Positions 5,837 through 64,000 of a DNA stretch of 64,000 nucleotides are shown here, in pieces. The translations under genes and the position numbers were made by a program. How positions within the stretch are numbered: the first letter of the stretch is position 1; each line of letters begins with the position of its first letter. This DNA comes from Streptomyces sp. SAJ15 (lineage in GTDB: Bacteria > Actinomycetota > Actinomycetes > Streptomycetales > Streptomycetaceae). Location of the stretch: the NCBI RefSeq assembly GCF_007595705.1, contig NZ_NISY01000014.1, forward strand, positions 62,001 to 126,000, written 5' to 3'. Under the pieces are notes generated by a model. That model was not told where the DNA came from and searched no databases. It saw nothing but the letters and a program-made list of their open reading frames with translations.

Positions 5837-7714
5837 ATGTGCGGCATCACCGGATGGGTCGCCTTCACCCGCGACCTCACCGACGAACACCAGACCGTCG
5901 CGGCCATGGCCGACACCCTGGCCGCCCGCGGACCGGACGCGGCCGGCGTCTGGCTGGACGACCACGCGGCCCTGGGCCACCGTCGGCTGTCCATCATCGA
6001 CCTGGAGCACGGCACGCAGCCGATGCGCACCCCGGAGCGCGGCCCCGGGGACCGGCCGCGCGCCGTCGTCTCGTACGGCGGCGAGATCTACAACTGCCGC
6101 GAGCTGCGCGAGGAACTCGCCCTCCTGGGGCACCGGTTCGCCACCCGCAGCGACACGGAGGTGGCCCTGCGCGCCTACCTGGAGTGGGGCGCGGACTTCG
6201 TCCACCGCCTCAACGGCATGTACTCCCTCGCCATCTGGGACACCGCCCGCGAGGAACTGCTGCTCGTCCGGGACCGGCTGGGCGTCAAGCCGCTCTTCTA
6301 CCAGCCCACCCCCGACGGAGTCCTCTTCGGCTCCGAACCCAAGGCGATCCTCGCCAACCCGCTGGCCGAGGCCGCCGCCGGCCCCGAGGAGCTGTGCGAC
6401 GCGCTGCTCTTCCTGCGCACCCCCGGCCGGGTGCCGTTCCGCGGCATGCGCGAGGTCAAGCCCGGCCACCTGGTGCGGGTCGGCCGCGACGGGATCGTCG
6501 AGCGGCGCTACTGGGCGCTGGAGTCCCGCCCGCACACCGACGACCTGAAGACGACCGTCGCCACCGTCCGCGCACTGCTCGACGACATCGTCCCCCGGCA
6601 GATGATCGCGGACGTGCCGCTGGTCTCGCTGCTCTCCGGCGGCCTCGACTCCAGCACCGTCACCGCCCTCGCCGCCCGTGCCCGCGCCGCCGACGGCGGC
6701 CGGCTCGCCACCTTCTCCGTGGACTTCACCGGCCACACCGAGAACTTCAAGGCCGACGCCATCCGGCCCACCCCGGACGGTCCGTACGCCCGAGAGGTCG
6801 CCCGACACGTCGGCAGCGACCACCACATGATCACCCTGGACCGGGCCCGGCTCCTCGACCCGGCCGTGCGCAAGTCCGTCCTCGGCGCCTGGGACCTGCC
6901 GTTCAACTTCGCCGACCTGGACGTGTCGCTGTACCTGCTGTTCGCCGCGGTGCGGGAACACGCGACGGTGGCGCTGTCCGGCGAGGGCGCCGACGAGGTC
7001 TTCGGCGGCTACCTGTGGTTCTCCGACCCGGAGGCGCGCAAGGCCGAGACCTTCCCCTGGCTCAAACTGGGCGCCCACCGCGGCCTGGACCCGCGGTCCC
7101 TGTTCCACCCGTGGTTCGTGGACGGGATCGACCTCGCGGAGTACGAGGCCGACCTCTACCGCACCGCGCTCGCCGAAGTCCCCCACCTGGACGGCGCGGA
7201 CACCGAGAACGCCGCGGACCGTCGCACCCGCGAGCTCGGCTACCTCACCCTCACCCGCTGGCTGCCCATCCTCCTCGACAAGAAGGACCGCATGGGCATG
7301 GCCAGCGGACTGGAGGGCCGGGTGCCGTTCTGCGACCACCGCCTGGTCGAGTACGTCTTCAACATCCCCTGGGAGATGAAGACCTACAGCGGCGAGGAGA
7401 AGGCCCTGCTCCGCGCGGCCGCCGCCGACCTGCTGCCGGAGTCGGTCCTGCGCCGAAAGAAGGCCGCCTACCCGTCGATCCAGGACTCCGCCTACGACCG
7501 CGCCCTCATCACCGGCCTCACCGCCGCGGCGGGCGACGACGCGGCACCCCTGAGCGCGTACCTCGACGCGGCCGCGGTGCGCCGGCTCGCCGACAAGACC
7601 ACCACCGGCAGCCTGTCCGAATTCGAGCGGATCCTCGTCGAGTCCACCGTCCGGCTCGACGACTGGACGCGCGCCTACGACGTCGACCTCACCCCCCTGA
7701 ACGGAGCCCACTGA
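5837..7714 (+). CDS. Asparagine synthase (glutamine-hydrolysing)-like amidotransferase, AsnB family
   Basis: This 625-aa protein has the N-terminal nucleophile Cys2 (MCGITGW) of class II glutaminases and a C-terminal synthetase domain with the ATP pyrophosphatase loop LLSGGLDSST near residue 267. AsnB enzymes release ammonia from Gln and transfer it to an adenylated carboxylate. Homologues inside natural-product clusters often amidate a pathway carboxylate or form other C-N bonds instead of making Asn. A GGAG ribosome binding site precedes ATG 5837, and the stop overlaps the next ATG (TGATG at 7712). Being sealed into the isonitrile operon suggests a biosynthetic role, possibly amidation of a carboxylate or ammonia delivery after ring cleavage. 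That role is inference. Confidence 0.87.
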   Translation: MCGITGWVAFTRDLTDEHQTVAAMADTLAARGPDAAGVWLDDHAALGHRRLSIIDLEHGTQPMRTPERGPGDRPRAVVSYGGEIYNCRELREELALLGHRFATRSDTEVALRAYLEWGADFVHRLNGMYSLAIWDTAREELLLVRDRLGVKPLFYQPTPDGVLFGSEPKAILANPLAEAAAGPEELCDALLFLRTPGRVPFRGMREVKPGHLVRVGRDGIVERRYWALESRPHTDDLKTTVATVRALLDDIVPRQMIADVPLVSLLSGGLDSSTVTALAARARAADGGRLATFSVDFTGHTENFKADAIRPTPDGPYAREVARHVGSDHHMITLDRARLLDPAVRKSVLGAWDLPFNFADLDVSLYLLFAAVREHATVALSGEGADEVFGGYLWFSDPEARKAETFPWLKLGAHRGLDPRSLFHPWFVDGIDLAEYEADLYRTALAEVPHLDGADTENAADRRTRELGYLTLTRWLPILLDKKDRMGMASGLEGRVPFCDHRLVEYVFNIPWEMKTYSGEEKALLRAAAADLLPESVLRRKKAAYPSIQDSAYDRALITGLTAAAGDDAAPLSAYLDAAAVRRLADKTTTGSLSEFERILVESTVRLDDWTRAYDVDLTPLNGAH

Positions 7715-8688
7715 TGCACGCCATCGAGATCCGGGAGACCGGCGGACCCGAGGTCCAGATCCACGTCGAGAAGCCCGACCCCGGGCAGCCCGGCGAAGGT
7801 CGGATCCTCGTCGCGCTCGCCGCCGCCGGCGTCAACTTCATCGACCTCTACCGCCGCGAGGGCCGCTATCCGCTGCCCCTCCCGTCGATCCCCGGGGAGG
7901 AGGGCTCCGGCACCGTCCTGGCCGTCGGCCCCGGCGTCACCCGCTTCACGGTCGGCGACCGCGTCGCCTGGACCACCGTCCTCGGCAGCTACGCCACCCG
8001 GGTGCTCGTCCCCGAGGAGAAGGCGATCCTCGTCCCCGACGGCATCGACCTGGTGACCGCCGGCGGCGTGCTCGTCCAGGGCATGACCGCCCACTACCTG
8101 GCCAACGACTCGTACCGGGCGAGGGAGGGCGACACCGTGCTGGTGCACGCCGCCGCCGGCGGGGTCGGGCTGCTGCTCACCCAGATGCTCAAGCGGCGCG
8201 GCGTGCGCGTCATCGGCACCGTCTCCACCGAGGAGAAGGAGAAACTCGCCCGCGCCAACGGCGTGGACGCGGTCATCCGCTACACCGAGACCGACGCTCT
8301 GGCCGCCGAGGCCCGCCGCCTCACCGACGGCGAGGGCATGCACGCCGTGTACGACGGCGTGGGCGCCGCCACCTTCGACGCCAGCCTGGAAGCGCTGCGC
8401 ACCCGCGGCACGCTCGTCCTCTACGGCGGCGCCAGCGGCGCGGTGCCGCCCGTCGACGTGATGCGGCTGCTGTGGGGCGGTTCGCTCACCCTGACACGCC
8501 CGTACCTGGAGCACTTCCGGTCCACGGTCGAGGAGTTCGAGTGGCGGGCGGGCGAGGTGTTCCAGGGCATCCTCGACGGCACGCTCAAGGCCACCATCGG
8601 CGGTGTCTACCCCCTCGCCGAGGCGTACCGCGCGCACACGGACCTGGCGTCCCGGCGCACCACCGGAAAGCTGCTGCTCGTCCCGTAG
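7714..8688 (+). CDS. NAD(P)H:quinone oxidoreductase-like medium-chain reductase (zinc-free)
   Basis: This 324-aa MDR-superfamily protein belongs to the quinone oxidoreductase branch. It has the GVNFIDLYRREG block, the IPGEEGSG region and the Rossmann motif HAAAGGVGLLLTQ. The catalytic and structural zinc-ligand cysteines of alcohol dehydrogenases are absent, as expected for this branch. Typical reactions are reduction of quinones or of enone double bonds with NADPH. It overlaps the AsnB-like gene by one base and is followed after 38 bp by the extradiol dioxygenase. In this operon it could reduce an o-quinone back to the catechol or an unsaturated ring-cleavage product. Family sure, substrate unknown. 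Confidence 0.86.
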   Translation: MHAIEIRETGGPEVQIHVEKPDPGQPGEGRILVALAAAGVNFIDLYRREGRYPLPLPSIPGEEGSGTVLAVGPGVTRFTVGDRVAWTTVLGSYATRVLVPEEKAILVPDGIDLVTAGGVLVQGMTAHYLANDSYRAREGDTVLVHAAAGGVGLLLTQMLKRRGVRVIGTVSTEEKEKLARANGVDAVIRYTETDALAAEARRLTDGEGMHAVYDGVGAATFDASLEALRTRGTLVLYGGASGAVPPVDVMRLLWGGSLTLTRPYLEHFRSTVEEFEWRAGEVFQGILDGTLKATIGGVYPLAEAYRAHTDLASRRTTGKLLLVP

Positions 8689-8726
8689 TCCCCGGTAACC
8701 GCCCGGACCGCAAAGGAGGTTTGTCC

Positions 8727-9602
8727 ATGGGTGAGATCGTGGGCGCGGGCCTGGTCTCGCACGCGCCGGTCATCATGTTCCCCGAGCCGGCCCGGATCGA
8801 GGCGAACGGCGGCCGTGACTTCACGCTCGTGACCGGGCTGAAGCGGCTCCGGCACGAAGTGATCGACACCGTCGACCACGACACGGTGGTGGTGTTCGAC
8901 TCGCACTGGGCGACGACGACCGAGGCGGTGATCACCGCCCATCCGCGCCGCGAGGGCCTGTTCACCTCCGACGAGATGCCGGCCGCGATCAGCCGGCTGC
9001 CGTACGACCTCGCCGGGGACCCCGAACTGGCCCAGGCGGTCGCCGGCCTGGCGGCGGAACGAGAGGTGTGGTTCCAGGCGAACGACGATCCGTATCTGCC
9101 GATGCACTACGCGACGCTCAACCTCTGGACCCACCTCGGGTGGGCGGACACGCCCTGGGTCTCGGTCTCCGTCTGCCAGACGGCCACCACCGAGGACTTC
9201 CTCCGCATCGGCGAGATCCTCGGCGAGGCGATCGACGGCCTCGACCGCAAGGTGCTGCTGCTCGCCTCCGGCGGCCTCTCGCACCGCTTCTGGCCGCTGA
9301 CCGAGCTGCGGAACCGGATGGCGGGCGACCCCGCGCACATCGTCACCCCCGAGGCACGGGAGGCCGACGAGCAGCGGATCGCCTGGCTGGAGGCGGGGCG
9401 GCACGACCGGGTGATCGAGACGATGCCCGAGTACCGACTCTTCGCCCCCGAGGCGCGGTTCGGGCACTACCTGATGCTGGCCGGCGCGGTCGGCGGGCCC
9501 AGGTGCGCCGCTCCCGGCCGCAGCTACGGCGCCTACGAGAACGGCATCGGCACCGGCCAGGCCCATGTCTGGTTCGACCGGCCCGCCCGGGGCTGGACGT
9601 GA
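8727..9602 (+). CDS. Extradiol catechol dioxygenase, class III (LigB/HpaD-like)
   Basis: This 291-aa protein resembles the LigB-superfamily 3,4-dihydroxyphenylacetate 2,3-dioxygenases. The N-terminal GLVSHAPVIMFPEP carries an early iron-binding His, FDSHWATT a second His, and LASGGLSHRFWP the His of the active-site block. These non-haem Fe(II) enzymes open a catechol ring next to the hydroxyls, giving a 2-hydroxymuconic semialdehyde. A strong AAAGGAGGT site lies seven bases before ATG 8727. Together with the upstream HpaB-like hydroxylase it suggests that a tyrosine-derived catechol is ring-opened in this pathway. That step is not part of the known Pseudomonas pvc pathway. Confidence 0.85.
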   Translation: MGEIVGAGLVSHAPVIMFPEPARIEANGGRDFTLVTGLKRLRHEVIDTVDHDTVVVFDSHWATTTEAVITAHPRREGLFTSDEMPAAISRLPYDLAGDPELAQAVAGLAAEREVWFQANDDPYLPMHYATLNLWTHLGWADTPWVSVSVCQTATTEDFLRIGEILGEAIDGLDRKVLLLASGGLSHRFWPLTELRNRMAGDPAHIVTPEAREADEQRIAWLEAGRHDRVIETMPEYRLFAPEARFGHYLMLAGAVGGPRCAAPGRSYGAYENGIGTGQAHVWFDRPARGWT

Positions 9603-55646: not shown

Positions 55647-56306
55647 ATGAAGATCGGCATCATCGGCGCAGGCAACATCGGCGGCAATCTGACCCGGCGA
55701 CTCACCGCGCTCGGCCACGACGTGTCCGTGGCCAACTCGCGGGGCCCGCAGACCCTGAGCGCGCTCGCCGAGGAGACCGGCGCCACCCCCGTCACCGTGG
55801 CCGAGGCGGCGCGCGGGGCGCGGATCGTGGTGGTCACGATCCCGCTGAAGAACATCCCCGACCTTCCGAAGGGCCTGCTCGACGGGGCCGCGGACGGCGT
55901 CGCCGTCATCGACACCGGCAACTACTACCCCAAGGAGCGCGACGGCAGGATCGCCGCGATCGAGGAGGGGCTGACGGAGAGTCGCTGGACCGAGCGGCAC
56001 CTCGGCCACCCCGTCGTCAAGGCGTTCAACGGGACCTACGCCCAGGACATCCTGGAGAGGCCGCGCCCCAAGGGGGACCCGGAGCGCATCGCGCTGCCGG
56101 TCGCCGGAGACGACGAGACGGCCAAGCAGGCGGTCCGCGACCTCATCGACGAACTCGGCTTCGACTCGGTGGACTCCGGCGGCATCGACGAGTCCTGGCG
56201 CCAGCAGCCCGACACCCCCGTCTACGGCCTGCGGGCCGGAGTCGAGGGCGTCACCGAGGCCCTGGCCGCCGCGTCGCCGGAGCGCCCGGAGGCGTTCCGG
56301 GCCTAG
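55647..56306 (+). CDS. F420-dependent NADP reductase-like protein (NADPH-binding)
   Basis: This 219-aa protein has the N-terminal KIGIIGAGNIGGNLTRRL Rossmann loop, VSVANSRGPQTLSAL and VVVTIPLKNIPDLPKGLL, with GHPVVKAFNGTYAQ later. This is the pattern of the F420-dependent NADP oxidoreductase/YrrT-like family, which shuttles hydride between NADPH and F420 or reduces small substrates. GGAAGGA lies about ten bases before ATG 55647. The 371-bp gap upstream, divergent from the cNMP protein, shows no gene. Confidence 0.83.
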   Translation: MKIGIIGAGNIGGNLTRRLTALGHDVSVANSRGPQTLSALAEETGATPVTVAEAARGARIVVVTIPLKNIPDLPKGLLDGAADGVAVIDTGNYYPKERDGRIAAIEEGLTESRWTERHLGHPVVKAFNGTYAQDILERPRPKGDPERIALPVAGDDETAKQAVRDLIDELGFDSVDSGGIDESWRQQPDTPVYGLRAGVEGVTEALAAASPERPEAFRA

Positions 56307-56375
56307 CGGAGGAGCACCGGCCGCGCCCCCGAGCCGCTGATGGGTCGGGGGCACGGAGGTGACGGGTGCGGGTGG

Positions 56376-56478
56376 CGGTCGGCTGCGCACGGTCCCCGCG
56401 CGGTGTGTGCGGCCGGCTGTGCGCGGTCCCCGCCGCGGCGTGTGCGGTCGGCTGCGCACGGTCTCCGCGCGGCGTGTG
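56376..56478. repeat. Three tandem repeats of 34-35 bp
   Basis: Units at 56376-56409, 56410-56444 and 56445-56478, each beginning CGGTCGGCTGCGCACGGT or a close variant and ending GTGTG. They lie between the F420-type gene and the RiPP cluster. No gene is certain in 56307-56737; a TTGACG at 56532-56537 could be a -35 element for the cluster. Confidence 0.8.
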
Positions 56479-56596
56479 CGCGGAGTCTTGTCGGCGGGTT
56501 ACCCCCTGGCTAGACTCCGCCGGAGTTTCACTTGACGCACATTTCCTTCACTGCTGTATCACCGACGATCGCCGATCTTCGGGACTCTCACAGGGG

Positions 56597-56737: not shown

Positions 56738-58108
56738 GTGATGGCGGCCGCTGCGGGAGGGCAGGGGGAGTCCGGCGACTCCGCGGCCCTCTCCACGGTG
56801 GGCGAGGACGGTTCCGCCGCGGCGACGCCGTCGCGGCCCGCCTCCGGCGGGGACGTGCGGCTGTACTGGTGGGCGAACACCACCGACGCCCTGGGCACGC
56901 AGATCTCCGGGCTGGTGCTGCCCGTCTTCCTGCTGTCGCTCGGGCAGTCACCGGCCGCGATCGGACTGATCACCGGCGCCTCCCTGGGGGCCGGACTCCT
57001 CCTGGCCCCCTACGCCGCGGTGCTGGCGGACCGCGGCGCCCGCAAGCGGGTGATGGTCTGGTCGGCCACCGTGTCCGCCATGGCGATGGGATCGGTCGCC
57101 GCGGCGGCAGCGTTGGGGCACGTCGTCTGGGCCCATGTGCTCACCGCGCTCGTGGTGGAGCGCTTCGCGACCTCCTGTCAGGAGGCCGCCGCCAGTGGGA
57201 CGGTGGCGGCCGTCGCCCCCCGGGCCGACTACCCCCGGGTGGTCTCCCGACTCCAGGCCGGCGAACAGGGTGCCCTGGTGGCCGGCCCGGTCCTCGGCGG
57301 CTGGCTCTACCAGTGGTTCCGCTGGCTGCCGTTCCTGGCGGACGCCGTCTCGTATCTCGTCGCCGCGGTGTGCGTACGCCGCATGCGATCCAAGCTGACC
57401 CCCGCACCCGCCCCCGTCTCCGGCCCCGACCCGAGCCCCGACCCGAGTCCGGACGGCGGGACGGAGGCGTCGGCGGGGCCACCCCGGACCGCCTGGCGCG
57501 CCACCGCGACCGAGGTCGGCGCGGGGCTGCGGCTGGCCCTCGACACCCCGTTCCTCCGGCTGGTGTTGCTGTGGACCACGGCCGTGGGCGGCGCCCTGGG
57601 CGGCCTCTACTACAGCGTCGTCTTCCGCGTCGGCGGCGACGGGACACACGCCTCGGCCCTGGGACTGGCGCTCTCCTGCGCGGGCGGCGCCGGGCTGGTC
57701 GGGTCGCTGGCCGCTCCCCGGCTGGCGCGCGGACTCTCCCCGGCCGCCGGCCTGGTGACGGTGTCCTGGCTCATGGTGCCGATCGCGGCGGGCCTCGCCC
57801 TGACCGACCGACTCTGGGCGTACGGGGTGCTGTTCGGCGCGCTGTCGCTGCTGACCGCGGTCGTCACCGTGGTGCTCCAGGCGCACGCCGTGGCGGTGAC
57901 ACCGCCGCACCTTCAGGCCCGCACCGGCACGGCCCTCGCCACCGCCGCCGGTGCCGCGGCGGCGCTCGCGCCCATCGTGGCCGGGGCGTGCGCCGACGGC
58001 TTCGGCCCGGCCGCGACCAGCGCCGGCTGCGCGGTGCTGCTGGCCGCGGTCGCCGCGCGGACCACCCGGGCGGCCCTCGCCGGCTCCCTACCGGGCAGGG
58101 CCGCATGA
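56738..58108 (+). CDS. MFS transporter (probable RiPP exporter)
   Basis: This 456-aa protein has about twelve transmembrane helices after a hydrophilic N-terminus of 40 residues. LYWWANTTDALGTQISGLVL starts helix 1, and the loop 2-3 motif region reads YAAVLADRGARKRVMVWSA. A long charged Pro/Asp/Gly loop lies in the middle (around residues 220-255). This is the pattern of the tetracycline/enterobactin exporter-like MFS group. The stop overlaps the S9 peptidase start (ATGA at 58105), so it belongs to the cluster and is the likely exporter. GTG 56738 or ATG 56741 may be the start. Confidence 0.85.
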   Translation: MMAAAAGGQGESGDSAALSTVGEDGSAAATPSRPASGGDVRLYWWANTTDALGTQISGLVLPVFLLSLGQSPAAIGLITGASLGAGLLLAPYAAVLADRGARKRVMVWSATVSAMAMGSVAAAAALGHVVWAHVLTALVVERFATSCQEAAASGTVAAVAPRADYPRVVSRLQAGEQGALVAGPVLGGWLYQWFRWLPFLADAVSYLVAAVCVRRMRSKLTPAPAPVSGPDPSPDPSPDGGTEASAGPPRTAWRATATEVGAGLRLALDTPFLRLVLLWTTAVGGALGGLYYSVVFRVGGDGTHASALGLALSCAGGAGLVGSLAAPRLARGLSPAAGLVTVSWLMVPIAAGLALTDRLWAYGVLFGALSLLTAVVTVVLQAHAVAVTPPHLQARTGTALATAAGAAAALAPIVAGACADGFGPAATSAGCAVLLAAVAARTTRAALAGSLPGRAA

Positions 58109-60135
58109 GCGCCCCGGCCTCCACCGCGGAGCCGACCGGCGGCGACGGGCCCCGGTTCGCGATCTACCGGGCCGAGCTCCCCGAGGTCTGTCCCACCGAT
58201 CCGGCGCTCATGGCCCTTACCGGCGACGCGGGCGGACGGTGCGAGATCTTCGCCTGGAACGGCCGGACCGGCCGCGCCCGCCAGGTCACCGACCGGCCGT
58301 ACGGCACGCTGCACTGCGCCATCGGAGCCGACGCCGCCATCTGGTGGTTCGACGAGGACCGCGACGGCGTCGGCGGCTGGCGCCGCCAGCCGTTCCTGGG
58401 CGGACCGGACCGGCCGGCCCTGCCGGGCGTACCCCCGGGCACCCCGCGCGGCCTGGCCTCGGCCGCCGACGGCACGGTCGCCGTCGGCCTGGGCGACGCC
58501 GAGGGCCTGAGCGTGTACCTGGGCGTACCGGGCCGCTCCGCCCGCCGGGTGCTGCGGGTCGCCGGCCCCGCCGTCCTCGCCGGTCTCTCCGCGAACGGCG
58601 AGCTGATCGCCGTCACCACCACCGCGGCCGGACCGCGGGCGGTCACGGTGTACCGGACCGACGGCACCCCGCTGGCGCGGCTCTCCGGCCGGCGCGGCCG
58701 GATCTGGTCACTCGGCTTCGCCCCGGCCGACGCTCGGCCGTCGGGCGACCCGCCCCCCGATGGCCGTCCCGTCTCCGCGTCCTCGCCCCACCACGCCACC
58801 TCCCCGCCGACCCGCCGGGCCACGTCCGAACTGCTGCTCGTCCGTGAGCACGGCGACGGTTACGCCCTCGCCACCTGGAGTCCCGGCGCCGGCCCGGAGA
58901 CACACGCGTGGTGCGCGTTCGACACCGAGATCACCGCCCGCTGGTACCCGGGCGGCGGACGGGTGCTGGTCCGGCAGGACCGATGGGGCCGCAGCCGCCT
59001 GTTCGCCGTCGACCTCCTACGGCGTACCCGGGTGCCGATCCCGGTGCCGGCCGGCACCGTGCTGGACGCCGCACCGCGCGGCGATGACGAGGTCCACTAC
59101 CTCTGGACCGACTCGGCCACCCCGCCCCGGCTCCGCTCCACGGGCCGGACCCGGCTGCCGACCGTCGGCACCCCGGCCGGCCGGGTGCCGGGCCGGCACA
59201 CCGAGCTGTGGACCGAGGGCGCCGACGGGCCGATGCACACCCTGCTCGGTCTGCCCGACACCGACGGGACGCGGCCGCCCCTGGTCTTCCTGGTGCACGG
59301 CGGGCCCGCCGACCACGACCGGGACGCCTACGACCCGATGGCGCACTCGCTGGTCGCGTCCGGATACGCGGTCGCGCGCGTCAACTACCGGGGGTCCACC
59401 GGCTACGGGCCGCGCTGGCGCGACGCCTACCGGGAAGGCGTGGGGCTCACCCAGGTCGCCGACCTCGCCGCGGTCCGCGCCGAGCTGCTCCGCCGCGGGC
59501 TGGTCCGACCCGACGCGGTGGGACTGTGGGGCACCTCCTGGGGCGGCTACCTGGTGCTGCTCGCCCTGGGCACCCGCCCGGAGCTCTGGCAGGCCGGGGT
59601 GGCGGTCAAGCCGGTGGCCGACTGCGCGCTGGCCCACCGCCTCGGCACCCCCGCCCTGCGCGCCCTGGACGAGGCGCTGTTCGGGGGCACGCCCGAGGAG
59701 GTGCCCGAGCGCTACGCCCGCAGCTCGCCCCTCCGGTACGCGGCCCGCGTCCGCGCGCCCCTGCTGGTGGTGGCGGGCACCCGGGACGCCAAGTGCCCAC
59801 CCGGACAGATCCGGAGCTATCTGTCGGCGCTCACCGCGGCCGGCGTCCCGCACGAGGCGATGTGGCTGGACACCGGCCACGACGGCTACCTCGGCGGCGA
59901 GCACATCGCGGTGCTGCGCCGCGCGATGACCTTCCTCGGCCGAGGGCTGCGCGGCCCACGGCGAGAGGAGCACCCGACCACCCGCGGCCGAGGGCGCGGG
60001 GGCGACGGGAGCGGCCATGCCACCGGCGTCACCGGTGACCGTGCCACCGGCGAGCCCGGTGGCCGCACCGACGGCCCTCCCGACGAACGCACCACCGACG
60101 CCGGCACCGCCGGCCGACCTGTGGAGAGGGGGTAG
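58105..60135 (+). CDS. S9-family (prolyl oligopeptidase-like) serine peptidase
   Basis: This 676-aa protein has an N-terminal beta-propeller (residues about 20-390) and a C-terminal alpha/beta hydrolase with the oxyanion block VFLVHGGPADHDRDAYDP, NYRGSTGYGPRW, nucleophile Ser in GLWGTSWGGYLVLLAL, Asp in AGTRDAKCPPGQ and His in DTGHDGYLGGEH. S9 enzymes cut short peptides, often after Pro. A Gly/Thr/Arg-rich tail of about 60 residues follows. It is coupled to the MFS gene and ends five bases before the candidate precursor gene, so it is a plausible leader peptidase. That role is inference. Confidence 0.85.
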   Translation: MSAPASTAEPTGGDGPRFAIYRAELPEVCPTDPALMALTGDAGGRCEIFAWNGRTGRARQVTDRPYGTLHCAIGADAAIWWFDEDRDGVGGWRRQPFLGGPDRPALPGVPPGTPRGLASAADGTVAVGLGDAEGLSVYLGVPGRSARRVLRVAGPAVLAGLSANGELIAVTTTAAGPRAVTVYRTDGTPLARLSGRRGRIWSLGFAPADARPSGDPPPDGRPVSASSPHHATSPPTRRATSELLLVREHGDGYALATWSPGAGPETHAWCAFDTEITARWYPGGGRVLVRQDRWGRSRLFAVDLLRRTRVPIPVPAGTVLDAAPRGDDEVHYLWTDSATPPRLRSTGRTRLPTVGTPAGRVPGRHTELWTEGADGPMHTLLGLPDTDGTRPPLVFLVHGGPADHDRDAYDPMAHSLVASGYAVARVNYRGSTGYGPRWRDAYREGVGLTQVADLAAVRAELLRRGLVRPDAVGLWGTSWGGYLVLLALGTRPELWQAGVAVKPVADCALAHRLGTPALRALDEALFGGTPEEVPERYARSSPLRYAARVRAPLLVVAGTRDAKCPPGQIRSYLSALTAAGVPHEAMWLDTGHDGYLGGEHIAVLRRAMTFLGRGLRGPRREEHPTTRGRGRGGDGSGHATGVTGDRATGEPGGRTDGPPDERTTDAGTAGRPVERG

Positions 60136-60140
60136 CAGCC

Positions 60141-60260
60141 GTGCAGAAGGACATCATCCAGAACGACCCGCTGATGGGTGACGAGGAGAACCGGAAGCCG
60201 GGCGTGATGATCAGCGTCACCGTCCCGTTCCGTAACGCGGAGGACAGCGAGGAGGAGTGA
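60141..60260 (+). CDS. Candidate RiPP precursor peptide (39 aa)
   Basis: A GTG-started frame with GGAGAGGGGG eight bases upstream encodes a 39-aa peptide: leader-like MQKDIIQNDPLMGDEENRKP, then hydrophobic GVMISVTVPF, then an acidic tail RNAEDSEEE. It sits between the S9 peptidase and the radical-SAM RiPP maturase and is followed by a perfect hairpin, the usual place for a precursor gene. The Val/Ile/Thr/Pro run could be the target of C-methylation. No cysteines are present. The match is by context; I do not recognise the peptide family. Confidence 0.72.
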   Translation: MQKDIIQNDPLMGDEENRKPGVMISVTVPFRNAEDSEEE

Positions 60261-60267
60261 CTCCTCT

Positions 60268-60301
60268 CCGGTCGGCCCGGTCCGACCACCGGGCCGACCG
60301 G
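60268..60301 (+). terminator. Perfect 14-bp hairpin (attenuator) after the precursor gene
   Basis: CCGGTCGGCCCGGT (60268-60281) and ACCGGGCCGACCGG (60288-60301) enclose a six-base loop, eight bases after the peptide stop. There is no T-run. It probably stops or stabilises part of the transcript so that the peptide is made in excess over the maturase. Confidence 0.8.
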
Positions 60302-60356
60302 TCTCCACCCCGCGCCGCCCTCCCGCCCTCTCCGTACCTCCCGCCGAGGAGCCGTC

Positions 60357-62276
60357 ATGCGCGTCCTGCTGGTCAACATGCCCTGGTCTCCCATCGATCT
60401 GCCGTCCCTGGCGCTCGGCATCCTCAAGCGCAGCGTCGACGAACGCGTGCCCGGCGCGCACGCCGACGTGCTGCACGCCAATCTGGAGTTCACCGACTGG
60501 ATCACCGCCCGTACCCCCTTCACCAGCGCGGACTACGAGTACTACGCGCTCTCCTCCTACTTCCTGGGCTGCGGGGACTGGGTCTTCTCCTCCGCGCTGT
60601 ACGACGACCCGGAGTGGCGGGTGGCGGAGTTCACGGCGGCGATGTCGGACAAGCTGCGCCCGTCACGGCTGGAGAAGACACTCCAACTGCATCGGACGGT
60701 GCCGCGCTTCGTGCGGGAGGCGGCCGAACGGATCGTCGCCGCCGCCCCGGACGTCGTCGGGTTCACCTCCACCTTCCAGCAGAACACCGCCGCGTTGGCC
60801 GCGGCCAAGGAGATCAAGCGGCTGGCCCCGCACATCGTGACGGTCTTCGGCGGTGCCAACTGCGACGCGGAGCAGGGGGCCGCCGCACACCGCAACTTCC
60901 CCTTCGTGGACCATGTGATCCGCGGCGAGGGCGAGGCCGCGTTCCCCGCGCTGCTCACCGCGCTCCGCGACGGCGGCGCGCTCGACGCCGTGCCGGGGCT
61001 GTGCCACCGCGGCCCCGACGGCGCCAGCGTCGTCAACCCGATGAGCACCAGACCGCTGCCGCCCGCCGCCATCCTGCCGCCCGACTACACCGGCTACTTC
61101 GAGCGGCTCGCCGCCTCCACGGCCCGCGCCTGGGTGGAGCCGAAGCTGGTGGTGGAGGGCGCCCGCGGCTGCTGGTGGGGGGAGAAGCACCACTGCACCT
61201 TCTGCGGTCTCAACGGCTCGTTCATGCAGTTCCGCAGCAAGAGCCCGGACACCTTCTACGAAGAGATCATGGAGCTCTCCCGGCGACACCGGGTCCTGGA
61301 CATGTACGTCGTCGACAACATCCTCGACATGGGCTACCTGACCACGGTCCTGCCGCGGATCATCGACAGCGGCCACGACCTGCGGCTGCACATCGAGATC
61401 AAGGCGAACATGCGCCGCGCCCAACTGCGCACCCTCGCCGAGGCCGGCCTGATCTACGTCCAGCCCGGCATCGAGAGCCTCAACAGCCGTGTCCTGGGCC
61501 TGATGGACAAGGGCGTCAGCGGCTGCCAGAACGTGCGGATGCTGCGCGACGGCGCGGAGACGGGCCTGTCCGTCGCCTGGAACTACCTGCACGGCTTCCC
61601 GGGAGAGACGGACGCCGACTACGAGCCGGTCATCGCCCAGATCCCCGCCCTGGAGCATCTGAACCCACCGGTCGACCGGTCCGCGCGGATCGCCATCGAA
61701 CGCTTCAGCCCGTACTTCGACCGGCCCGAACTCGGCTTCTCCGACCTGCGGCCCGAGAAGCACTACCGCTTCACCTACGACCTGCCGGAGGAGGAGCTGT
61801 ACGACCTCGCGTACGTCTTCGAGGCGCCGGATCGCGGCATCGGCGAGGGCACCGCGAACGCGCTCAGCGACGCGCTGACGGAGTGGAAGAAGCACAACGT
61901 CGACAGCCGGCTCACCCACTCCGACCTCGGCGACCGGGTCGTCCTGGTGAGCCGCCGGCGGAAGTTCGACTGGGGGGTGCGGGAGCTGACCGAGCCGCTG
62001 CACCTGGCGGCGTTCCGGCTGCTGGACCAGCCGCACGCGCTCACCCCGCTGACCCGCAAGCTGCGCGACCGGCTGCCCGGACGGGACGTCGAGGAGCCGG
62101 AGGTGGCCGCCCTGTTGGAGGAGTGGCTGGCCCTCGGGCTGGTGTTCACCGACGCCGGTCAGTACGTGCACATCGCGCCCGCCGCGGTCAACGAGGACCT
62201 GCTGCGGCTCTACTTCATGCGCCATGCGCACGCCGACCCCGCGCCCCGGACACCCGAGCCGGCCGGCCGGGCCTGA
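60357..62276 (+). CDS. Cobalamin-binding radical-SAM RiPP maturase (rSAM_ocin_1-like C-methyltransferase family)
   Basis: This 639-aa protein opens VLLVNMPWSPIDLPSLALGI and has an N-terminal B12-binding-like domain (to about residue 200; VVGFTSTFQQNTAALA, VFGGANCDAEQG). The radical-SAM cluster motif is CX7CX2C in GCWWGEKHHCTFCGLNG (C272, C280, C283), not the classic CX3CX2C. This spacing and the WWG/GLNG context are typical of RiPP maturation radical-SAM protein 1. The C-terminal 120 residues resemble a winged-helix peptide-binding part. Members methylate unactivated carbons of precursor peptides. GAGGAG precedes ATG 60357. Confidence 0.9.
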   Translation: MRVLLVNMPWSPIDLPSLALGILKRSVDERVPGAHADVLHANLEFTDWITARTPFTSADYEYYALSSYFLGCGDWVFSSALYDDPEWRVAEFTAAMSDKLRPSRLEKTLQLHRTVPRFVREAAERIVAAAPDVVGFTSTFQQNTAALAAAKEIKRLAPHIVTVFGGANCDAEQGAAAHRNFPFVDHVIRGEGEAAFPALLTALRDGGALDAVPGLCHRGPDGASVVNPMSTRPLPPAAILPPDYTGYFERLAASTARAWVEPKLVVEGARGCWWGEKHHCTFCGLNGSFMQFRSKSPDTFYEEIMELSRRHRVLDMYVVDNILDMGYLTTVLPRIIDSGHDLRLHIEIKANMRRAQLRTLAEAGLIYVQPGIESLNSRVLGLMDKGVSGCQNVRMLRDGAETGLSVAWNYLHGFPGETDADYEPVIAQIPALEHLNPPVDRSARIAIERFSPYFDRPELGFSDLRPEKHYRFTYDLPEEELYDLAYVFEAPDRGIGEGTANALSDALTEWKKHNVDSRLTHSDLGDRVVLVSRRRKFDWGVRELTEPLHLAAFRLLDQPHALTPLTRKLRDRLPGRDVEEPEVAALLEEWLALGLVFTDAGQYVHIAPAAVNEDLLRLYFMRHAHADPAPRTPEPAGRA

Positions 62277-62363
62277 CCGCCCGACCGCCGTCTTCCCCCG
62301 TTCGTGACGGCCGGAAGGCCACCCTGATCGTCACCCCGTCGGAAGCAGGAGGAGCGACCCCGG

Positions 62364-63062
62364 ATGAGCAGCACCACCACCCCGCCGACGGCGGAGGCCG
62401 ACGCCCCGGACCGTCCCGTGTCGGTACTCGCCTGGCGCGACTACGACATCGACGCCTGCCGCCTGCCGGGCATGGACCTGGGCGAGCTCGCGATCGGCGG
62501 TCGGTCCGCCGAGGAGGTCACCCGGCTGTGGGAGCTGGGCGCCCGCAGGGTGCGGCTCCCGAAGACCGTGGATCTGGCGGTCGCCGCGGCCGACCCGGTC
62601 GCCGCCGCCCGTGCGGTGCGCGCCCTGTGTCTGGTCCGCGACCTGACGGCCCGGGCGGTGCTGGTCGAGTGGCGGCTGACGCTCGCCGACGCGGACCCGG
62701 ACGGGTGGCGGGCGCTGAACCATCTGCAACCACCCCAGGACCTGGCCGGTCCGACCGGCGCGACCGAGGCCCTCGCGGAGTGGCGCCACCGCCACTACCT
62801 GTGCAAGTGCCTGTGGCGTCAGGGGCCGGGCTTCGTCCAGATCCGCGACCGCCGCTGGGGCGACCTCCGCCGGTTCACGGTCGCGGAACCCGAGTACCAG
62901 GAGGCGATCGCCCTCCTGGAGGACGGCGTGCCCGCCCGCCGGGTGGACCCGGAGATCCTCGCCGACCTGCGCTCGGAGCGCCTGGTCGGCGAGGTCGGCG
63001 AGCTGGTCTGGTGGCTGCCGTACCGGGTGCGGCGCTGGATCCAGGAGGCCATGACGGTCTGA
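62364..63062 (+). CDS. DUF5825-family protein
   Basis: This 232-aa soluble protein, with no membrane helix, has VSVLAWRDYDIDACRLPGMD, then a middle YLCKCLWRQGPGFVQIRDRR and LRRFTVAEPEYQEAIALLED. DUF5825 proteins travel with radical-SAM RiPP maturases in Streptomyces, and a role in substrate recognition or in catalysis has been supposed; none is proven to my knowledge. It follows the maturase by 87 bp and is the last gene of the cluster. AGGAGG lies upstream of ATG 62364. Confidence 0.75.
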   Translation: MSSTTTPPTAEADAPDRPVSVLAWRDYDIDACRLPGMDLGELAIGGRSAEEVTRLWELGARRVRLPKTVDLAVAAADPVAAARAVRALCLVRDLTARAVLVEWRLTLADADPDGWRALNHLQPPQDLAGPTGATEALAEWRHRHYLCKCLWRQGPGFVQIRDRRWGDLRRFTVAEPEYQEAIALLEDGVPARRVDPEILADLRSERLVGEVGELVWWLPYRVRRWIQEAMTV

Positions 63063-63223: not shown

Positions 63224-64000
63224 TCACTTCACCGAGCCGGCCATCACACCCTGGACGAAGTGGCGCTGGAAGGCGAAGAACACGACCAGCGGCACCACCA
63301 GCGAGAGGAACGCGCCCGGCGCGAGCACCCCGATGTTGCTGCCGAACTGCCGCATCTCCGACTGGAGGGCCACCGTCAGCGGCTGCGACTCGCTGTCCGC
63401 GAAGATCAGCGCGACCAGCATGTCGTTCCACACCCACAGGAACTGGAAGATGGCCAGGCTGGCGATGGCGGGCTTGCCGAGCGGAAGGACCAGTCGCGAG
63501 AAGATCCGCCACTCCCCGCCGCCGTCCATCCGGGCCGCCTCCAGCATCTCCTTGGGGATCTCCGCGAAGTAGTTGCGGAGCAGGAAGATGGCGAACGGCA
63601 GTCCGTAGGCGACGTGGAAGAGCACCACTCCGGGGATGGAGCCGAAGAGCCCGAGGGCGCCGAACATCTTCGCCACCGGCAGCAGACCGATCTGGATGGG
63701 CACCACCAGCATGGCGACCACCAGCAGGAAGATCCAGTCGCGGCCGGGGAACTCCAGCCAGGCGAAGGCGTATCCGGCCAGCGCCGCGATCGCCACCACC
63801 GCCACCGTGGTGGGGACCGAGATCAGCACGGTGTTCCAGAAGGCCGCGGTGATGCCCGAGTTCTCCAGGAGCGCCGTGTAGTTGTCGAACGACAGCTGGC
63901 TCGGCGCGCTGAGCGCCTTCCACCAGCCGCTGCCGGCGTTCGCCTCCTCGGAGCGCAGCGAGGAGAGGAACAGTCCGGCGACCGGGGTGACCCAGATCAG
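63224..64000 (-). CDS. Carbohydrate ABC transporter permease, MalG-like (5' end outside window)
   Basis: The frame is open from the right window edge (257 visible codons). It has the SPSQLSFDNYTALLENSG external segment, several transmembrane helices and the EAA loop EAARMDGGGEWRIFSRLVLP, with C-terminal FVQGVMAGSVK, the usual MalG-type ending. It forms part of a sugar importer with a second permease and a binding protein expected beyond the window. The sugar cannot be read. Confidence 0.92.
   Translation of the reverse strand: MIWVTPVAGLFLSSLRSEEANAGSGWWKALSAPSQLSFDNYTALLENSGITAAFWNTVLISVPTTVAVVAIAALAGYAFAWLEFPGRDWIFLLVVAMLVVPIQIGLLPVAKMFGALGLFGSIPGVVLFHVAYGLPFAIFLLRNYFAEIPKEMLEAARMDGGGEWRIFSRLVLPLGKPAIASLAIFQFLWVWNDMLVALIFADSESQPLTVALQSEMRQFGSNIGVLAPGAFLSLVVPLVVFFAFQRHFVQGVMAGSVK

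Follow-up and report, generated by a model that had tools for sequence, protein, structure and literature searches.

The window, the whole 64,000-nucleotide stretch of Streptomyces sp. SAJ15 DNA analyzed here, very probably carries a clavusporin-type RiPP operon, an assignment in which the precursor was compared with that of Streptomyces clavuligerus, presumed from its name to be the clavusporin producer. The cluster is a genuine but ordinary addition to this known type, which is common in Streptomyces; it opens no new class, and its variant core, together with a lead on DUF5825, provides modest extras. Five genes lie on one strand in the order MFS transporter, S9 prolyl-oligopeptidase-type protease (POP), precursor, radical-SAM (rSAM) enzyme, and DUF5825 protein. 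Coordinates and family matches bear out the place and strand that the first-pass annotation had given to these genes, and profile matches agree with its parts list of MFS, S9 peptidase, short precursor, B12 radical-SAM enzyme, and DUF5825. The MFS gene (56738..58108, plus strand; PF07690 [MFS_1], E 3.6e-26), encoding the probable exporter of the mature peptide, has a homologue in the same slot in nearly all related loci. It overlaps by 4 nt with the gene for the MpcP-like POP (58105..60135, plus strand; PF00326, E 2.4e-35), the probable leader peptidase, in which a motif search located GTSWGG (59530-59547), GTRDAKCP (59776-59799), and GHDG (59875-59886). The 39-aa precursor (60141..60260, plus strand) is followed by the B12-binding rSAM RiPP C-methyltransferase (60357..62276, plus strand) and its partner protein DUF5825 (62364..63062, plus strand; PF19142, 254 bits, E 1.1e-75). 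The rSAM enzyme combines a B12-binding domain (PF02310, E 1.2e-10) with a Radical_SAM domain (PF04055, E 3e-12) in Pfam and is assigned by NCBIfam to TIGR03975 (rSAM_ocin_1, “RiPP maturation radical SAM C-methyltransferase”) scoring 608 bits where the cut-off is 282. The CX7CX2C spacing and the B12-binding domain that had been read from this gene earlier are both present, the iron-sulphur motif being CWWGEKHHCTFC (61170-61205), that is, C-WWGEKHH-C-TF-C. It was the single TIGR03975 enzyme found in the whole 8.1-Mb genome, and a second genome of the same species also holds the cluster, with a precursor that is 97% identical.

The cluster is bounded downstream by an ABC-transporter permease gene (BPD_transp_1; 63224-64000, minus strand), which was rejected as a member since it sits on the opposite strand. 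Just upstream lies an F420-dependent NADP oxidoreductase-like gene (55647-56306, plus strand; PF03807) that was likewise considered as a member; it is probably outside the cluster, as the related loci that were searched contained no homologue. A 34-bp tandem repeat (56368-56480; 3.4 copies, 85% match) precedes the MFS gene in the intergenic region. As for regulation, an Rfam scan of the cluster returned no cobalamin or other riboswitch, no sigma-70-type promoter was found at the cluster, and the five genes contain no TTA (bldA) codons, which could have tied them to development. A single terminator-like match, at 56506, is near shuffle expectation.

A passage in PMC12257519 that cites Zhang et al. 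(Nat Chem Biol 2025) attributes the C-methylation of clavusporins to a B12-rSAM/DUF5825 pair, and a passage in PMC12951456, citing the same study, assigns removal of the clavusporin leader to the prolyl oligopeptidase MpcP. As far as these passages describe it, rSAM, DUF5825, and POP are thus all known parts of the clavusporin pathway, and this is the set that the window shares with it (PMC12257519, PMC12951456). The title of Zhang et al., as far as its wording is quoted, speaks of “peptide surfactants ... that promote bacterial development.” On the S. clavuligerus megaplasmid pSCL4 (NZ_CP016560.1), the same five genes are found in the same order. The first-pass annotation had claimed that no characterized product was known from such a gene set, and had itself named a known product from the same genes as what would tell against novelty; with clavusporins arising from a B12-rSAM/DUF5825/POP pathway and all five genes present on pSCL4, this claim was wrong and the novelty falls, while the RiPP cluster logic and the C-methylation inferred alongside it are supported. 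Clavusporins are reportedly hydrophobic peptides with multiple C-methylations that reduce surface tension and support the formation of aerial hyphae in Streptomyces, and the operon for them is said to occur widely among actinomycetes. A keyword search of the open-access literature found no further accounts of them.

The S. clavuligerus homologues of the MFS, POP, rSAM, and DUF5825 proteins are WP_003958126.1, WP_003958125.1 (annotated as an alpha/beta hydrolase), WP_003958123.1 (a RiPP rSAM), and WP_003958122.1, respectively. Identity to the window is highest for the rSAM (81%), followed by DUF5825 (59%), POP (58%), and MFS (49%), and the S. clavuligerus precursor, MQKDVIHNDPLAGDEENRKPSVGITITVPFRNAEDADED (L063:8812-8931), is 74% identical over 39 aa (E 3.4e-17). 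The pSCL4 annotation table, which may be incomplete, lists no gene for this 39-aa peptide, whose start overlaps the 3′ end of the annotated “alpha/beta fold hydrolase” coding sequence (6897-8852). In a maximum-likelihood tree of the rSAM enzymes, window and S. clavuligerus fall, together with the other clusters of this type, into one 58-row clade (support 100/99) that excludes 15 divergent DUF5825-associated enzymes, and the order MFS-POP-precursor-rSAM-DUF5825 is kept in nearly all of 50 related loci. It could be argued that the same C-methylating machinery here serves a functionally different product, e.g., an antimicrobial or signal peptide, and not a clavusporin-like surfactant, given that Met23 and Ser25 of the window core recur in few or no relatives and that distant DUF5825 clusters have very different cores, so that product function may vary. 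Since the window matches S. clavuligerus in precursor, gene order, and rSAM clade, we regard this as rather unlikely and favor the clavusporin-type reading.

The precursor, MQKDIIQNDPLMGDEENRKPGVMISVTVPFRNAEDSEEE, begins at a GTG codon with GGAGAGGGGG upstream and can be divided into a leader (residues 1 to 20), a probable core (21 to 30; GVMISVTVPF), and an acidic tail (31 to 39; RNAEDSEEE). The first-pass annotation had proposed a search for DUF5825 beside rSAM_ocin_1 proteins with comparison of their small ORFs, and had named the lack of a conserved ORF as evidence against its reading. When run, this search recovered a homologous precursor between POP and rSAM in 47/47 other Streptomycetaceae loci with a fully readable slot, as well as in S. 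clavuligerus, which shows that the ORF is no product of chance; outside this count are three loci, one partly masked by an N run yet matching (L019), one reading N (L043), and one that begins at a contig end (L042). In the set of 48 readable precursors, which counts that of the window, Pro10 and Pro29 never change, 45 members have Pro20, and only Val or Ile occurs at positions 22, 24, 26, and 28. With few exceptions, the family follows the pattern MQKD[IV]IxNDPL..DEENRKP in the leader, [SGT][VI][GSM][IV][TS][VI][TK][VI]P[FIL] in the core, and RNAEDxEE in the tail. The pN/pS ratio is 0.47 overall, 0.37 for the leader, 0.40 for the tail start, and 0.75 for the core, where changes are mostly V/I exchanges. 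The ORF is short and starts with GTG, and the annotation of pSCL4 lacks an equivalent, which might suggest that the true precursor is encoded elsewhere. However, with conservation in the same slot of every fully readable relative, ribosome-binding sites, constrained leader residues, and same-slot small ORFs with a similar leader in several divergent DUF5825 clusters, there is hardly any likelihood that the 39-aa peptide is not the substrate.

Compared with the S. clavuligerus core SVGITITVPF, the window core differs by Ser21 to Gly, Gly23 to Met, Thr25 to Ser, and Ile26 to Val. Relatives mostly have Gly or Ser at position 23 and Thr at position 25. With Met23 and Ser25, the window offers a naturally occurring core variant for C-methylated peptides of a class described only recently, and such a variant helps to map the tolerance of the methyltransferase. 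Placed at every second position, the V/I residues point to a strand that is hydrophobic on one face.

Based on homology and the literature, the 39-aa precursor would be translated first, and the rSAM enzyme with DUF5825 would then methylate unactivated carbons of the GVMISVTVPF strand, most likely at the alternating Val/Ile residues 22, 24, 26, and 28. Unactivated carbons of a ribosomal peptide are also the targets of PoyB and PoyC, the B12-rSAM peptide C-methyltransferases of polytheonamide, a system that differs in having another precursor type and no DUF5825. A reaction other than methylation has a precedent in PbsB of biphenomycin-type pathways, a B12-rSAM that cross-links ortho-tyrosines (PMC12257519). 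For the enzyme in the window such cross-linking appears very improbable, because the core lacks Tyr, Trp, and Cys, the match to the C-methyltransferase family TIGR03975 reaches 608 bits, and the passage on clavusporins assigns C-methylation to the rSAM/DUF5825 pair (PMC12257519). Following methylation, the POP would take off the leader, as described for its counterpart MpcP, with the simplest cut being after Pro20. Cleavage at this site might not be general, since Pro20 is missing in 3/48 precursors, and the cut may lie elsewhere, given that all 48 have Pro10 and Pro29. The MFS protein would serve as the exporter. Should the product keep the acidic tail RNAEDSEEE, it would combine a C-methylated hydrophobic head with a charged tail, which would fit the “peptide surfactants” of the title cited above. 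The unmodified 19-mer GVMISVTVPFRNAEDSEEE, with a computed net charge of -4 and a mass of 2107.97, plausibly has such a detergent-like layout, and we infer a surfactant role in Streptomyces sp. SAJ15.

How DUF5825 assists the methyltransferase may be hinted at by its AlphaFold2 model (pLDDT 88); the prediction for the rSAM enzyme (pLDDT 55) was too low for use. The densest run of invariant family residues falls in the C-terminal part, modeled as strands 149-154, 157-165, and 167-174, helices 177-185 and 196-204, and a hairpin at 208-217. The best structural match of this part is TbiB1, a lasso-peptide leader-binding protein (5v1u/5v1v; residues 147-213 aligned with Z 5.5-5.6 and an rmsd of 2.7-2.9 over 62-64 residues), with ThcOx (5lq4) in sixth place through its N-terminal domain (Z 4.6); these Z values are low, below the level that would exclude a common arrangement. 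For the N-terminal half, only loose alignments to partial alpha/beta barrels were obtained. The C-terminal ~85 residues of the model are thus possibly an RRE-like leader-binding domain. Foldseek gave no match to the model at E <= 0.001, hhalign no match to a PqqD-like RRE profile (PF05402; 30 Streptomyces sequences; probability 0.6%), the Pfam scan of the protein no family other than DUF5825, and the comparison of its sequence with solved structures nothing convincing. Considering the low Z values together with the Foldseek and PqqD profile results, the RRE-like role is to be taken as a lead. It is tempting to speculate, with the odds somewhat against it, that DUF5825 serves as a divergent leader-recognition partner of two domains, an RRE-like winged helix at the C-terminus and an alpha/beta half at the N-terminus, and delivers precursors with short K-x(2-5)-[ND][DN]P-like leaders to TIGR03975 methyltransferases. 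If this were the case, clavusporins would be one clade within a wider group of beta-strand peptides that carry C-methylations.

DUF5825 was found in 70/296 Streptomyces genomes sampled (about 24%) and in two genomes of the same order but of a different family; of 396 genomes sampled across the phylum, four exceeded the cut-off, all from the same genus. The YHxYxY MNIO clusters (PMC12257519) have the B12-rSAM/DUF5825 pair in common with the window, whereas their MNIO, their cross-linking B12-rSAM, and their unrelated precursors are all absent from it. At L071 and L072, likewise from a different family of that order, divergent rSAM/DUF5825 pairs lie downstream of what by eye is a TPR-repeat-like frame, and no precursor-like small ORF was recognized upstream of the pairs. 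At distant pairs elsewhere, small ORFs occupy the same slot, namely MEKTVVENDPQIDDPDSALVTVGVSVSF and MEKTVVHNNPQMENRKDVDSTVISVMVVVSF (both L064), VEKTVVDNDPQTEGTESATITIPIITGRF (L086), VRKAVVHNDPLDLKNQSRANRPIIVIIVSS (L083), MKRRSVQNDPISTPERDRGAVVSAFTIDITKAAPVKPATALVKPATKK (L073), and VKKTTIVSDPRAMAAGKRSGTDVIGVRRTLAVEGL (L085); most of the distant ORFs come from inspection of six-frame translations by eye and should be regarded as leads. A K-x(2-5)-[ND][DN]P-like leader recurs in several of them, and their cores differ, some being V/I-rich. The comparison shows both fixed precursor residues and several other precursor types beside related rSAM/DUF5825 pairs. A second type of tiny ORF precedes divergent pairs (MEIKKVVVREEERGTGRRPAILEKRPTR in L087, with similar ones in L065, L075, and L076); it has a basic, Pro-containing end in place of the V/I-rich core, which suggests a different product.
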